Source: a virus. Taken from it: DNA of 43,636 bases. The position numbers were made by a program, and so were the translations under genes. The notes under the pieces are model-generated. The model worked only from the letters and a program-made list of their open reading frames with translations, made no database searches and was not told the DNA's origin. Positions 5,548 through 26,099 of this stretch are shown piece after piece (within the stretch, counting starts at the first letter, position 1; each line of letters opens with the position of its first letter). The stretch spans positions 1 through 43,636 of IMG/VR virus record IMGVR_UViG_3300025687_000088; one strand, 5' to 3'.

Positions 5548-5787
5548 TTAATTAAACTCTACGGCTGCGCCGATTGCTGCAATGCAAGCCTCTTTGTAGG
5601 TGACTTCCTTATCAACGTAGATGGCGAGCAAAAAGGAATCCAAATTTTCGCTTGCTATCATTAACTGGGTTTCTGTTGCTTGTGGGAAAAGAGCCTCTGC
5701 CTCGTTCCAAAGCGCCTGCGCTTCGTCGCTGGTGTAATGCGCCTTGTCCTGTTCGCTTATGTATTGGAAGTCTCTGTGCGTTCCCAT
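5548..5787 (-). CDS. Hypothetical protein, first gene of the left early operon (79 aa)
   Basis: An acidic soluble protein beginning MGTHRDFQYISEQDKAHYTSDEAQALWNEAE; no family recognised. It has a GGGAA ribosome site and lies directly downstream of the divergent promoter region at 5824-5889, so it is probably the first product made from the leftward promoter. Confidence 0.6.
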   Translation of the reverse strand: MGTHRDFQYISEQDKAHYTSDEAQALWNEAEALFPQATETQLMIASENLDSFLLAIYVDKEVTYKEACIAAIGAAVEFN

Positions 5788-5818
5788 TTTCTTTTCCCGT
5801 TCCGTGATTCGATAACTT

Positions 5819-5848
5819 CATTCTACACATGCACATACAGAATGCAAC
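5819..5848 (-). promoter_or_regulatory. Leftward early promoter with operator in spacer
   Basis: Reading the minus strand, TTGCAT (-35) and TAGAAT (-10) are separated by 16 bases, and the spacer contains GTGCATGTGTA, one of the repeated operator-like words. It would drive the Erf/YqaJ operon. Confidence 0.5.
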
Positions 5849-5889
5849 ACTATTGTTTATGTTTCTGCGCATGTGTATCATGCACACAT
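5824..5889. promoter_or_regulatory. Operator cluster between divergent early operons
   Basis: TACACATGCAC (5824-5834) and GCGCATGTGTA (5867-5877) are inverted copies of one word (10 of 11 bases). CATGCACACAT (5879-5889) is a related third site. Relatives occur at 7257-7267 and 22501-22511. The sites overlap both promoters, as expected for a repressor switch. The ribbon-helix-helix protein encoded at 5908 is one candidate ligand and the HTH protein at 20261 another. Confidence 0.5.
5853..5881 (+). promoter_or_regulatory. Rightward early promoter
   Basis: TTGTTT (5853-5858), a 17-base spacer and TATCAT (5876-5881) fit a sigma-70-type promoter. An operator-like word fills the spacer's second half. 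It would transcribe the regulator at 5908 and the rightward operon. Confidence 0.45.
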
Positions 5890-12839: not shown

Positions 12840-12943
12840 ACTGCCCCAACTGTGAAAAGACGCTTACAAAAGGCAAGTTACTAATCAACTATTACAAATG
12901 CCGGTCATGTGGTCGGGTTTATCATAGGAATGCTGTGGAATGA
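12836..12943 (+). CDS. Tiny zinc-ribbon peptide (35 aa)
   Basis: TTG start at 12836 overlapping the VRR-NUC stop; AGGAGG lies 13 bases upstream, rather far. CPNCEKTLTKGKLL...YYKCRSCGRVYHR is a complete two-pair zinc ribbon. The stop overlaps the next start (ATGA). The conserved zinc pattern supports a real product despite the weak start. Confidence 0.5.
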   Translation: MNCPNCEKTLTKGKLLINYYKCRSCGRVYHRNAVE

Positions 12944-13326
12944 CCCGCGATAACCTATCCTACTACGTGATGCTATACGCAGCCGCACAACGCACAGGGA
13001 TGGCTCAAAACGGTTATCCTAAGCAGGTTCCCTGGTACACACCTCCCAGGCGTGGGGAGACTGATGAAAAGCGGGAAGATCCGCCAGGTGTAGAGGAATG
13101 GGAGGCGGCGGCACGGGTAGAGGCGGAACTAAATCGTTTTAGGGCGTTTGACAAAAAACGCAGGGCTTTAGTCGAGGCGTTAGATATTTGGGAGGGCGCT
13201 TTTGTTGACGCGCCGTTTAGTAAGAAGGAAAGGTGTAAGGTGATGCGGGTAGAATACAACCAGTGTCGGAAGGCGGCGGGGCGGTGTTTTAGGTTGTTGG
13301 ATAGGAAGTTGTTTCCAGATGGTTAG
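12940..13326 (+). CDS. Hypothetical protein (128 aa)
   Basis: A helical, charged protein with Tyr- and Pro-rich N-terminus (YPKQVPWYTPPRRGE) and a C-terminal helix pair (VMRVEYNQCRKAAGRCFRLLDRKLF). It sits near the end of the early operon, where lambdoid phages keep a late regulator, but nothing in the sequence proves such a role. Confidence 0.55.
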   Translation: MTRDNLSYYVMLYAAAQRTGMAQNGYPKQVPWYTPPRRGETDEKREDPPGVEEWEAAARVEAELNRFRAFDKKRRALVEALDIWEGAFVDAPFSKKERCKVMRVEYNQCRKAAGRCFRLLDRKLFPDG

Positions 13327-14406: not shown

Positions 14407-14714
14407 CGGTTAAAGCAAGAATTGTCGAAAAGTTCGAAACTTACCTGCTTTTATTGGTTAGTGTTGTTCTGGCACCAGCGGCCTTGATTGGCTTTTACGC
14501 GCACATGGATGCTAGGCACGATGAAAAAGGCTCTTCGCAAATCGCCACACAAAAGGCGCTAGACGAGATTAGAGCCGTAGAGATTAAAGAATTGAAGAGG
14601 GAAAAGCGGAAACTCGAAACATATTTAGAGTTAGCCCCCTCAGATACATATTATTTAAGCAGAAAAGCCGAGATTAGGGCTTTAGACGATGAGATTGCCG
14701 AGTTAGAGCGTTGA
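14403..14714 (+). CDS. Membrane-anchored coiled-coil protein (possible spanin-like)
   Basis: 103 aa, GTG start. One N-terminal membrane segment (TYLLLLVSVVLAPAALIGFYA, about 13-33) is followed by a charged coiled coil (EIKELKREKRKLETYLEL...EIRALDDEIAELER). This is the shape of an inner-membrane spanin such as Rz, but the coil is short and no partner lipoprotein gene is seen. Alternatively it pairs with the preceding coiled-coil protein. Confidence 0.5.
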   Translation: MTVKARIVEKFETYLLLLVSVVLAPAALIGFYAHMDARHDEKGSSQIATQKALDEIRAVEIKELKREKRKLETYLELAPSDTYYLSRKAEIRALDDEIAELER

Positions 14715-15100
14715 AATTAGAGCGTTTTGCCTACCTCCCGAACGGGACACTAGGCCGCATTATTCTAAGTGGCAAAGAGATATTCACATTAGAGCGTCCG
14801 TGGCTTGATAACACACCTTCTATCAGTTGTATTCCCGAAGGGGTATACAAGGTCAAGCCCGACGAGGAAGGCCGCTATACGGGCTATCCAGAACTTCAGG
14901 ACGTACCTGGACGCTCAGAGATCATTATTCATACTGCTAACCACGTCCATCAACTAGAGGGTTGTATTGCTCCTGGTTTCCAATGGTCAGTTAGCAATTT
15001 AACCCCAAGCGTATGGCAGTCCAAACTAGCGTTAGATTTAATCCGCGCAGTAGGTGAAGAATTTACGCTTGAGATAACGAGTATTAGCGCAAAGATTTAA
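14711..15100 (+). CDS. DUF5675 family protein
   Basis: 129 aa from a TTG overlapping the preceding stop; no ATG is available. The pattern TLERPWLDNTPSISCIPEGVYKVK...DVPGRSEIIIHTANHVHQLEGCIAPG matches DUF5675. The His and Cys in IIHTAN...GCI are reminiscent of L,D-transpeptidase-type active sites. In phages this family often sits with lysis genes and could act on peptidoglycan. No recognisable lysozyme, amidase or transglycosylase endolysin is present, so it is the best endolysin-like candidate here (inference). Confidence 0.75.
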   Translation: MKLERFAYLPNGTLGRIILSGKEIFTLERPWLDNTPSISCIPEGVYKVKPDEEGRYTGYPELQDVPGRSEIIIHTANHVHQLEGCIAPGFQWSVSNLTPSVWQSKLALDLIRAVGEEFTLEITSISAKI

Positions 15101-15103
15101 GAT

Positions 15104-15198
15104 CAACAAACCCGGCACACCAGCCACAAGGTTGATTCCCTTGCCCTGGTGAGCGTCAACCCCCCTCCCTCTCCCCTTTGACGCGGGCCGGGTTGTTG
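15104..15198 (+). ncRNA. Predicted three-way-junction RNA leader
   Basis: The closing helix is CAAC/GTTG plus AACCCGGC/GCCGGGTT (15104-15116 with 15187-15198, one bulged A). It encloses two hairpins: CACCAG/CTGGTG with inner CAAGG/CCTTG (15118-15151), and GCGTCAA/TTGACGC (15153-15184) with an 18-base loop made only of C and T. Linkers are 1, 1 and 2 bases. The helix ends four bases before the AGGAG of the small membrane gene. The C/T loop holds CTCC, able to pair with that GGAG. It could be a cis-regulatory RNA or a complex terminator. Confidence 0.55.
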
Positions 15199-15211
15199 TT
15201 TAGGAGTTCCA

Positions 15212-15355
15212 ATGGAAGAAATGAAACGCAAATTCATGCGAGTTCTGCGATGGGCAACCGCAATATTGCAGTTAGGCTGGCAAGAGGCCGCGCAATGGCT
15301 GCGTGAATACTGGTTTGCATTACTGATCGGCGTGGTTGTGGGCATATTGCTTTGA
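15212..15355 (+). CDS. Small membrane protein (47 aa)
   Basis: ATG 15212 with AGGAG 6 bases upstream. The first ~30 residues form an amphipathic basic helix (MKRKFMRVLRWATAILQLGWQEAAQWLR). They are followed by one membrane segment at the C-terminus (WFALLIGVVVGILL). The stop overlaps the TTG start of the holin-like gene. Size, topology and place fit a small holin, antiholin or lysis regulator, with the structured RNA just upstream controlling it. Confidence 0.6.
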   Translation: MEEMKRKFMRVLRWATAILQLGWQEAAQWLREYWFALLIGVVVGILL

Positions 15356-15726
15356 ATTGGTTTACGGCGTTATTTACGCCCAAGACGATAGCGGAAACCG
15401 CTAAGAGCGCGGTTAAAGGCTTAGATTCAATTGTCTACACTGACCAAGAGAAGGCGGAAAAAACCCAGGCGGCGCAGGCTTTGTATGCTGATTTGTGGAA
15501 GGCTGCTACACCAAGCGCAATTTCACGGCGAATAATTGCTGCTGTGATGGTTAGTGTGTGGGCGTTTCTTATTTTACTTGGTTCGCTGGTTTACAAGTTT
15601 GACCAAGCGTGGTCGGAGTTCATTTTCCGTGTTTTGGGCGAGGTTGTTTTGCAGCCGGTCAATATTATTGTTGGGTTCTACTTCCTGTCCCAAGTGGTGA
15701 CTAAATACAATGAAAGCAGGAAATAA
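15352..15726 (+). CDS. Holin-like membrane protein
   Basis: 124 aa, TTG start overlapping the previous stop. A soluble N-terminal part (LFTPKTIAETAKSAVKGLDSIVYTDQEKAEKTQAAQALYADLW) precedes two hydrophobic segments, IIAAVMVSVWAFLILLGSLVY (about 62-82) and VLQPVNIIVGFYFLSQVV (about 99-116). It then has a short charged end. The layout matches the holin-type membrane proteins of marine phages and gene transfer agents. Probably forms the inner-membrane lesion at lysis. Confidence 0.6.
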   Translation: MNWFTALFTPKTIAETAKSAVKGLDSIVYTDQEKAEKTQAAQALYADLWKAATPSAISRRIIAAVMVSVWAFLILLGSLVYKFDQAWSEFIFRVLGEVVLQPVNIIVGFYFLSQVVTKYNESRK

Positions 15727-16952
15727 TGTCCGAGATTAAAAAATATTACGAAATTACGGACATTAAAACCCCCGGCTATTACCAGGCTTTTTACAACGGG
15801 CAAAAAATCAATCGCGATGGGCATAGCGGGAATCATCGAAATATCCATGAGTGTGAGCAAACAATATTTTGGCATTTGCAAAACGCAGATGTACCGGAAG
15901 GAAAGGTTAGTTATGAAATTCGCAAGCCGAGCACTATTTTGGAGGCTGATGTGAGTTTAATAATATTGGGTGGGGGTGTTGGCGGAGGTTCTACGGTTAC
16001 AGAAACGGCAGTGACCGGTAAACTGGCGTGGGGCGATGTAGGTCACACTGGGGTGCTCACTGCGTTTACGGGAAGCGGCCTTCTTACCACTCCAGGGATA
16101 ACGTATACAGATTTGGATTTTTCGGGCAGGAAGATACTGAGGGCGAACAATCTCACATTCAGAAATTGTCGCTTTACTGATACCGCTGTTAGTGGGTCAT
16201 CGTACCTAATTGATGGCAATTCGTTCTCCTACGGCTTTGACGGTCCCTTTTTATTCGAGGACTGTACGTTCCTTGGTGCAGATAAGCAGATTTTAATGGG
16301 CGGAAATGTCGATGTCACGTTCAGGCGTTGCCAATTCCGCGACCCCTACGCTGATTTGCTACGGCCTTATGGCGGGACTTGGTTGTTTGAGGATTGTTTC
16401 TTTGGTCCGCACGGGGTGACTGGGACAAGCTCTCACGCTGATTCAACACAGGTAATTGGCGCCCCGGATATGTCATTCACTCGATGTACATGGGATTGCC
16501 CTTCTCCTACGCATGGCGAGCCAGTCGAGACAGGCTTCCCGATAGCTGACTCTTGGAGCGGCAGGAATTACAAAGGCGATATTGGACAGTTCTGGGATGA
16601 AGGAGGCGGTACAGGGGTTTACACAGACTGCCATTTCGTGCGAGCAACATCCACAGCTATTCAAATTGGTCGTGGGACAGCGGATGGCTCCCCTCAAACC
16701 GCATCTTTAACCCTTTCCGGGTGTCGTTTTTATCTGGGCATCATAAATATCATTACAGATAACAGCAACGAGTACAAAATTGGGTCTTCCGCGTTCCCGC
16801 ATTCAGACGGAATTTTTCATGGAAACATCACAGACAACGGCGGTAATCAGTGGGCCGAAACAGGCACCACGACAGGTGGAGACGCGGTAACTGCTGGACA
16901 GAGCATCACGTTCACTTATTCGCCCGGAGGAGGAGGGGGTGTCTCATATTAA
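15726..16952 (+). CDS. Right-handed beta-helix virion protein
   Basis: 408 aa. The N-terminal ~80 residues form a distinct domain (EIKKYYEITDIKTPGYYQAFYNGQ). A Gly-rich linker (GGGVGGG) is followed by repeating rungs of the type LTFRNCRFTD, FLFEDCTFLG, VTFRRCQFRD, WLFEDCFFGP, MSFTRCTWDC and LTLSGCRFYL, each ~25 residues with a conserved Cys. This is a parallel beta-helix with a cysteine ladder. It ends in a Gly run. Likely a receptor-binding or glycan-active structural protein, distinct from the two tailspikes. Confidence 0.7.
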   Translation: MSEIKKYYEITDIKTPGYYQAFYNGQKINRDGHSGNHRNIHECEQTIFWHLQNADVPEGKVSYEIRKPSTILEADVSLIILGGGVGGGSTVTETAVTGKLAWGDVGHTGVLTAFTGSGLLTTPGITYTDLDFSGRKILRANNLTFRNCRFTDTAVSGSSYLIDGNSFSYGFDGPFLFEDCTFLGADKQILMGGNVDVTFRRCQFRDPYADLLRPYGGTWLFEDCFFGPHGVTGTSSHADSTQVIGAPDMSFTRCTWDCPSPTHGEPVETGFPIADSWSGRNYKGDIGQFWDEGGGTGVYTDCHFVRATSTAIQIGRGTADGSPQTASLTLSGCRFYLGIINIITDNSNEYKIGSSAFPHSDGIFHGNITDNGGNQWAETGTTTGGDAVTAGQSITFTYSPGGGGGVSY

Positions 16953-24113: not shown

Positions 24114-26099
24114 ATGTCCTATCCCTTTACAGTACCGAAGCAGACGTTTTTTGACGGTGGAGTTATTGCTGCTGCTGGGACGATAGAGTTCCGTAGTCCG
24201 TCTACGAATGCATTGATTGACACGTTTCCGACTGCTGATGACGCGGATGCTCAGACGAACGCGAATGACAACCCGTTGACTTTGGATGCTAATGGTCAGG
24301 CGGTGATCTTTCTCGAAGACGATGTGACGTACAAGGTCATATTAAAGAATGTGAATGGTGACACGGTTTGGACTGTAGATGATGTACGTTCACCTGAGAG
24401 GATTGATACGGGTTCTTATACGCCTTCTGGTGGTGTGTCGCGGACGTTGGCGAGTAAGTTGGATGAGACTGTATCTGTGACCGACTTTGGTGCTGTTGGT
24501 GACGGGATTACGGACGATTTAACCGCGCTACAGGCAGCAGCCGACTCTGGGGAACTTGTTTATTTCCCGCCAGGAATTTATGCCGTATCTGATTCTGTGA
24601 ACTTTTCAGACTACACTAGGTTTATTGGGGCTTCTGCGTTTTATAAGCGCAGGACGGGTTACACGTATTCCGCGAACAAGCATGCAGTTATTAAATATAT
24701 CGGTTCTGGGGGCACTAATAGTTGCGCTGTTCGTGTGTCAGCAACGTCTGTCGGAGTGGTGGGTTCTGATTTTACCGCCCCCAGCACGGATGATTTGGTG
24801 GATTACCGTTTAGAACACATCCACATTGACGGAAATAATCTGGCTCAATATCCACTGTACATTTACAGGGCGGGAAATCAAAAGTATGGAATTAATGATG
24901 TAACCGTTGAGAGAGGGACGATTAATGTTGTTATGCTAGGTTGCTTTGCGGCCAATTTTGGGCGGATAGGTTCTTTTGAAGCCAGTGATAAGGGCTTCAG
25001 TATAGGCAGAGACATTTTTGGTTGGGGTGGTGCAGAATTTAATTGCTTTGACCTTAGAGCAGATTTGATTGCGTCAAACAACGGTACAGATGGGACGTTT
25101 GTTGCGGAAACCACAGATGAGGACGGTTGTGGCGTGTTGGCTGACGTAGGTCGAGGTTCCGAATTGCACATCACATCTGAAGGTAATGATGGAAGGTCTG
25201 CTATTATTGGGGGCACCTCTAGTGGCGGTCCGGCCACGATACACTGGCACTACCTGGAGGGGAATGGTGCTGGCCCAAGGGTGGATTTGCGGCCAGGATT
25301 CACAGGACTGCGATTTAAATGCGGCTTCCTTCACCCAGGTTCAGCGACGATTACTAAGGAAACCATATACTTAGTCGGTCGAAACTCATCAGGTGCAGCC
25401 ACTACAAATGAAGGGCCTATAGATGAGGGCGAGTGGCCTATTTTTGAAAACATAGGCGGCAAGAGTGGAAACACCTCCATTTACATTGACTCAAATACTT
25501 ATAAATATGATGTTCGAGACAGCACAGGGGTTAAGTTTATAGATAAGGCGCCCAAGGGTAAGGGCGTTTTCTGTTCTGGTACATTTTTGGGGGATAGTGG
25601 ACTTACAGATATTAGAATGCTGCGCGGCCAAACAATTTATGACGATTTTGAGGGTGATGGCAGCACAACGGCATTTACCTTGTCGCATACCTGTACCGCG
25701 CCAACAAATAACTCAACAAACCCTCTTGTTAGGGTTTATGTAAATGGGGTCTTACAAACATACACAACACACTACACTGTAGCAGGAACAACACTGACTT
25801 TTGTTACTGCCCCCACATATGGAGTTAAAATTAGAGCAGAATACTCTAACGCATCATTAACTAGGACGGGTGCTGGCGCATATACAATTACGTTTGGACA
25901 CGACCAAGTAGATGAAAACTACCATATCAGTCTGACAATGATACAAGGAAGTGGTTCGGGGTATGCTTATGTGCAAAGCCGGGCTGCGGATAGTTTTACT
26001 ATAAGGACGGTAAACCCGGCAACACCAGGAACTCCCGTTGATCTGGGTGCTGGATTTTTTATATCTTTTTCCTGCTCTTATTCAGGGACAGACTTATAA
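24114..26099 (+). CDS. Tailspike/tail fibre protein 2 (beta-helix, pectate-lyase-like)
   Basis: 661 aa. The N-terminal 110 residues (PTADDADAQTNANDNPLTLDANGQAVIFLEDDVTYKVILKN...) closely match those of tailspike 1. They are followed by the same linker and VTDFGAVGDGITDDLTALQ at about 122. The beta-helix domains align in places (HAVIKYIGSGGTNSCAVRVSATSVGV versus HAVILYAGAGGSNSCVVRASETAVGV) and then diverge. The C-terminal region is wholly different, with a DGSTTAFTLSHTC...RVYVNGVLQ type domain common in phage fibres. Gives the virion a second receptor or enzymatic specificity. Confidence 0.85.
   Translation: MSYPFTVPKQTFFDGGVIAAAGTIEFRSPSTNALIDTFPTADDADAQTNANDNPLTLDANGQAVIFLEDDVTYKVILKNVNGDTVWTVDDVRSPERIDTGSYTPSGGVSRTLASKLDETVSVTDFGAVGDGITDDLTALQAAADSGELVYFPPGIYAVSDSVNFSDYTRFIGASAFYKRRTGYTYSANKHAVIKYIGSGGTNSCAVRVSATSVGVVGSDFTAPSTDDLVDYRLEHIHIDGNNLAQYPLYIYRAGNQKYGINDVTVERGTINVVMLGCFAANFGRIGSFEASDKGFSIGRDIFGWGGAEFNCFDLRADLIASNNGTDGTFVAETTDEDGCGVLADVGRGSELHITSEGNDGRSAIIGGTSSGGPATIHWHYLEGNGAGPRVDLRPGFTGLRFKCGFLHPGSATITKETIYLVGRNSSGAATTNEGPIDEGEWPIFENIGGKSGNTSIYIDSNTYKYDVRDSTGVKFIDKAPKGKGVFCSGTFLGDSGLTDIRMLRGQTIYDDFEGDGSTTAFTLSHTCTAPTNNSTNPLVRVYVNGVLQTYTTHYTVAGTTLTFVTAPTYGVKIRAEYSNASLTRTGAGAYTITFGHDQVDENYHISLTMIQGSGSGYAYVQSRAADSFTIRTVNPATPGTPVDLGAGFFISFSCSYSGTDL

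Follow-up and report, generated by a model that had tools for sequence, protein, structure and literature searches.

A putative three-way-junction RNA between the DUF5675 gene and the small membrane/holin genes of a phage lysis cassette

The window analyzed here is the whole 43,636-nucleotide stretch of the viral record IMGVR_UViG_3300025687_000088. On its + strand, positions 14711 to 15100 encode a DUF5675 protein (PF18925; E value, 2.8e-25), the predicted model of which has a pLDDT of 94. A structural search of this model against the viral proteins in BFVD matched other members of DUF5675 as well as a phage protein annotated as L,D-carboxypeptidase/transpeptidase (E value, 5.6e-6); a comparison with the PDB gave no match. 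These viral matches, together with the invariant H and GC residues that the protein carries, indicate that its product is a probable peptidoglycan (L,D-transpeptidase-like) cell-wall enzyme. The next genes on the same strand encode a 47-residue protein with a single C-terminal transmembrane (TM) segment (15212 to 15355), which has no family match, and a 124-residue holin-like TM protein (15352 to 15726), which belongs to phrog_9646, a group with no function assigned in PHROG. The spacer that follows the DUF5675 gene contains the RNA element described below (15104 to 15198), the place of which is thus the lysis cassette. After the lysis genes, a 14-nt inverted repeat (86%) extends across the start codon of a 408-residue open reading frame (ORF) (15724 to 15765).

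Several other features of the window deserve mention. The gene at 12940 to 13326, which carries GYPKQVPWYTPP, has no PHROG match; it is 41% conserved two to three genes upstream of the DUF5675 gene in a second phage locus, L005, and stands shortly before terminase-like genes in three other loci (L041 to L043). Between 10112 and 13960, a gene resembling PAPS reductase, an ORF judged by eye to be cytosine-methyltransferase-like, and a DNA methyltransferase gene lie close together. Two large tail proteins (397 to 2187 and 24114 to 26099) both match PHROG 18522 in a short N-terminal region of similar extent and are probably tailspikes with a common virion-binding domain.

The three-way junction is both the minimum-energy and the centroid structure that RNAfold predicts for positions 15090 to 15225, in full agreement with the geometry given in the preliminary description (a 12-bp helix enclosing two hairpins, with linkers of 1, 1, and 2 bases and an 18-base pyrimidine loop). 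The closing helix P1 pairs 15104 to 15109 and 15111 to 15116 with 15187 to 15198, leaving A15110 bulged. Its 5' arm (15104 to 15116) is A-rich and then reads CCCGGC, and its 3' arm (15187 to 15198) is GCCGGGUUGUUG. Hairpin P2 (15118 to 15151) has a 6-bp basal stem (15118 to 15123 with 15146 to 15151), an internal loop, and a 5-bp upper stem (15127 to 15131 with 15139 to 15143) closed by a 7-nt loop. Hairpin P3 (15153 to 15184) consists of a 7-bp stem (15153 to 15159 with 15178 to 15184) and an 18-nt loop (15160 to 15177), CCCCCCTCCCTCTCCCCT, made only of C and T. The linkers are at 15117, 15152, and 15185 to 15186. A U-rich tract, UUGUUGUUU (15193 to 15201), follows the GC part of P1 in a terminator-like manner. 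The AGGAG ribosome-binding site (15202 to 15206) and the ATG codon at 15212 are outside the structure.

Comparison with shuffled and with Markov sequences bears out the claim that an ordinary spacer would be unlikely to give rise to such a geometry. The exact element has a folding energy of -38.7 kcal/mol (z = -4.1) on the sense strand, with 2 of 2,000 shuffles equally good, and the antisense strand gives z = -2.6; with wider flanks, the fold energy is unremarkable (z = -1.95). In 3,000 shuffles of the spacer, a scanner for the P1-P2-P3 geometry that requires a pyrimidine-rich loop in P3 gave no score as high as that of the real sequence. When the loop condition was dropped, about 1.1 Mb of Markov sequence yielded a single compact three-way junction with a score of at least 19. 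In addition, the 20-nt pyrimidine run that holds the P3 loop is the longest run of a single class, purine or pyrimidine, in the 43.6-kb window.

A second copy is found in L005, the only close relative of the window's DUF5675 protein among the viral contigs (62% identity). As in the window, it lies between the DUF5675 stop codon (5411) and a 43-residue ORF with one TM segment (5562 to 5693), and a phrog_3427 holin is encoded a little further downstream. No BLASTP alignment is obtained between the 47- and 43-residue proteins, so that their kinship rests on place and make-up. The L005 element reads AAACCCTGCCC-[GCATGT tgtgac ACATGT]-TT-[TCCCAAA tcctccccctctatcg TTTGGGA]-TA-GGGCAGGGTTT, that is, an 11-bp closing helix around two hairpins with linkers of 0, 2, and 2 bases, the second hairpin ending in a C/T-rich loop. 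Its energy is -32.2 kcal/mol (z = -5.4 for the sense strand versus -4.5 for the antisense strand), its geometry score was matched by none of 3,000 shuffles, and it contains G-U pairs, which only the sense strand tolerates. Two observations concern the protein-coding part of this locus. The 43-residue protein shows weak similarity to ElaB-like proteins in their C-terminal membrane tail (E values, 0.008 to 0.02). A 76-residue ORF (5562 to 5859) in another frame overlaps its gene; this ORF has a lipobox-like LPSC|SS signal, resembles an Rz1-type outer-membrane spanin, and has weak PHROG matches.

Because MAFFT alignments misplace P2 and P3, paired changes were counted by hand on a structural alignment. 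All 6 basal pairs of P2 differ between the two phages and 4 of the 7 P3 pairs are altered on both sides, with pairing kept throughout; P1, read from the A-tract, has one paired change in eight, the other seven pairs being identical. Conservation within the structure is strongest at the P1 base and its flanks: AAACCC.GC/GC.GGGTT is common to both, bordered by A-rich and U-rich tracts (on the U side, UUUUCU in L005). Although P2 and most of P3 differ, the loop core CCTCCCYCTCY is also common to both. The proposed test for compensatory changes is therefore positive in the one close relative, where the pyrimidine loop is kept as well. The structure has thus been retained in the same position by a distantly related phage, although most letters of its stems differ, which argues that the element is probably a real, conserved structured RNA. 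This conservation is supported by one independent member, and two sequences are too few for certainty or to define a class.

Searches for further members were negative. The structure scanner found no third copy in about 170 other DUF5675 loci from viral contigs and genomes. In two scans of viral contigs with P1 and loop patterns, the sole structured match was the contig of L005 itself, and the pattern gave only two chance matches in 369 gammaproteobacterial genomes. Neither the relatives of the upstream GYPKQVP gene nor the phage and plasmid collections yielded another member. The structure upstream of the DUF5675 gene in locus L016, which scored in a generic scan, was rejected, since it does not form a junction of this kind in its minimum-energy fold. 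The terminase-defined relatives of the window lack both DUF5675 and the lysis cassette and so offer no closer comparison. As these relatives are without DUF5675 and the window and L005 records have no portal protein in common, the DUF5675 cassette and the RNA appear to travel together as one module.

The search of structured-RNA models suggested in the preliminary description did not place the element in any known family: there was no Rfam match above the gathering score in the whole window, and a permissive search found no family for the window element. The L005 copy scored 22.0 bits (E value, 0.015) against DUF3800-IX RNA (RF02968), for which the gathering score is 36.8, whereas the window gave no match to it up to an E value of 5. 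The likeness consists of the three-way junction, the 11-bp closing helix, the 2-nt linker preceding the 3' arm of P1, and the U tail. However, an alignment of true DUF3800-IX members (L226 to L228) shows conserved CCGAACxGUC and CCGUAUGG motifs in P2, plus CUAGG, and these RNAs are convergent to a DUF3800-like gene (an opposite-strand ORF, read as DUF3800 from its sequence). Both P2 motifs are absent from the window and L005, where the flanking genes encode DUF5675 and small TM/holin-like proteins. Membership of L005 was therefore rejected on the grounds of its subthreshold score and the missing P2 motifs and neighbor gene; the match reflects a common topology, and the element works at most like a DUF3800 RNA but is not one.

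The loop and the stem invite different functional readings. A translational switch, in which the loop CUCC would pair with the AGGAG just 3' of P1 and delay synthesis of the small membrane protein, appears very unlikely. The CUCC/GGAG complementarity is present and P1 of the window ends 3 nt before the ribosome-binding site, but this distance is about 25 nt in L005, and the pairing comprises only 4 bp in the window, at -5.7 kcal/mol (-6.0 in L005) before loop costs. Nor is the pairing better with the element's own site than with unrelated ones: the start region next to the window element comes 16th when compared with 46 others of the window, and that of L005 comes 7th of 13. Several of the other window regions could pair with the loop far more strongly (down to -12.8 kcal/mol), which would fit a regulatory or protein-binding RNA that displays its 16- to 18-nt C/U loop either as a trans-acting seed against Shine-Dalgarno sequences, like C-rich small RNAs, or to a protein, for example S1 or one encoded by the phage; P1 and the U-tract would then form the 3' end of this RNA. 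The very stable junction scaffold, the constancy of the loop core on changed hairpins, and the uniqueness of the long pyrimidine run in the window all favor this reading. We nevertheless consider it unlikely, as any C/U loop pairs with purine-rich ribosome-binding sites, making the targets unspecific, and neither a promoter nor an Rfam family match is seen. A broader version, with a class of lysis-cassette RNAs presenting the conserved polypyrimidine loop to a partner (S1, 16S-like or Shine-Dalgarno targets, or a phage protein), timing the small membrane/holin genes, and carried between unrelated phages along with the DUF5675 cassette, seems quite doubtful.

In T7-like phages, the intergenic RNase III hairpins are stable stems between late genes. 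The long stacked helices of the element (P1 on P2 or P3, about 19 to 23 bp), which lie between genes of a late operon and keep their structure with changed letters, might similarly be cut by RNase III or a like enzyme, or might stop exonucleases, so that two messages with unequal lifetimes result. Such a processing site or mRNA stabilizer is rather improbable, since the conserved A/U tracts and the loop would be left unexplained; moreover, T7-type elements are simple hairpins, in contrast to this compact three-way junction with its pyrimidine loop. Least credible is a DNA-level element (a protein site, an origin, or a recombination feature) or the coincidence of two unrelated spacer structures. 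The inverted repeats do fold on both strands, and the minus strand of the window would have a G-rich loop; however, this G-run pattern is absent from L005, the sense strand is favored in both phages, and chance junctions are as rare as about one per megabase, with shuffles never reaching the score.

We tentatively favor a branched terminator-like element, acting as a read-through attenuator or a 3'-end or processing structure between DUF5675 and the small membrane/holin genes. A complex terminator fits best among the three functions originally offered, given the conserved P1 base with an A-tract before and a U-tract after it, although a standard terminator pattern scan (loops of 3 to 8 nt) calls the element in neither phage. 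As in intrinsic terminators, the A-rich tract precedes a GC-rich helix directly followed by a U-rich tract (U-tract scores, 3.1 for the window and 3.6 for L005; an eight-U control scores 5.2), and the conserved base with its A/U borders is as expected of a (bidirectional) terminator. The sense-strand preference in both phages likewise favors an element that acts as RNA. Neither phage has a promoter-like + strand site separating the element from the genes downstream, so that expression of these genes would depend on read-through. Against this, there are only two members, neither has a perfect U tract, and inside the stem lie two hairpins (70 nt in the window, 52 nt in L005) rather than a 3- to 8-nt loop. 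A simple terminator has no need of a three-way junction or of a conserved pyrimidine loop; this mechanism leaves the role of the loop unexplained, and the loop suggests an additional partner.

Under the terminator reading, the element would be made as part of the late lysis mRNA. P2 and P3 would fold first, drawing the P1 arms together, and the GC-rich P1, with the U-rich tract directly after it, would act as a branched intrinsic terminator, an attenuator, or a 3'-end structure. Only some transcripts, or those under antitermination, would reach the small membrane-protein/holin genes. We infer from sequence that termination or attenuation might set the dose or timing of the lysis proteins in this way.

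The element is a candidate for an RNA family not represented in Rfam, so far consisting of two sequences with paired changes, and is small enough for a plasmid reporter test. The timing of lysis is known mainly from the dynamics of holin proteins; a conserved branched RNA between the gene of a cell-wall enzyme and those of membrane proteins would add a control point at the RNA level.
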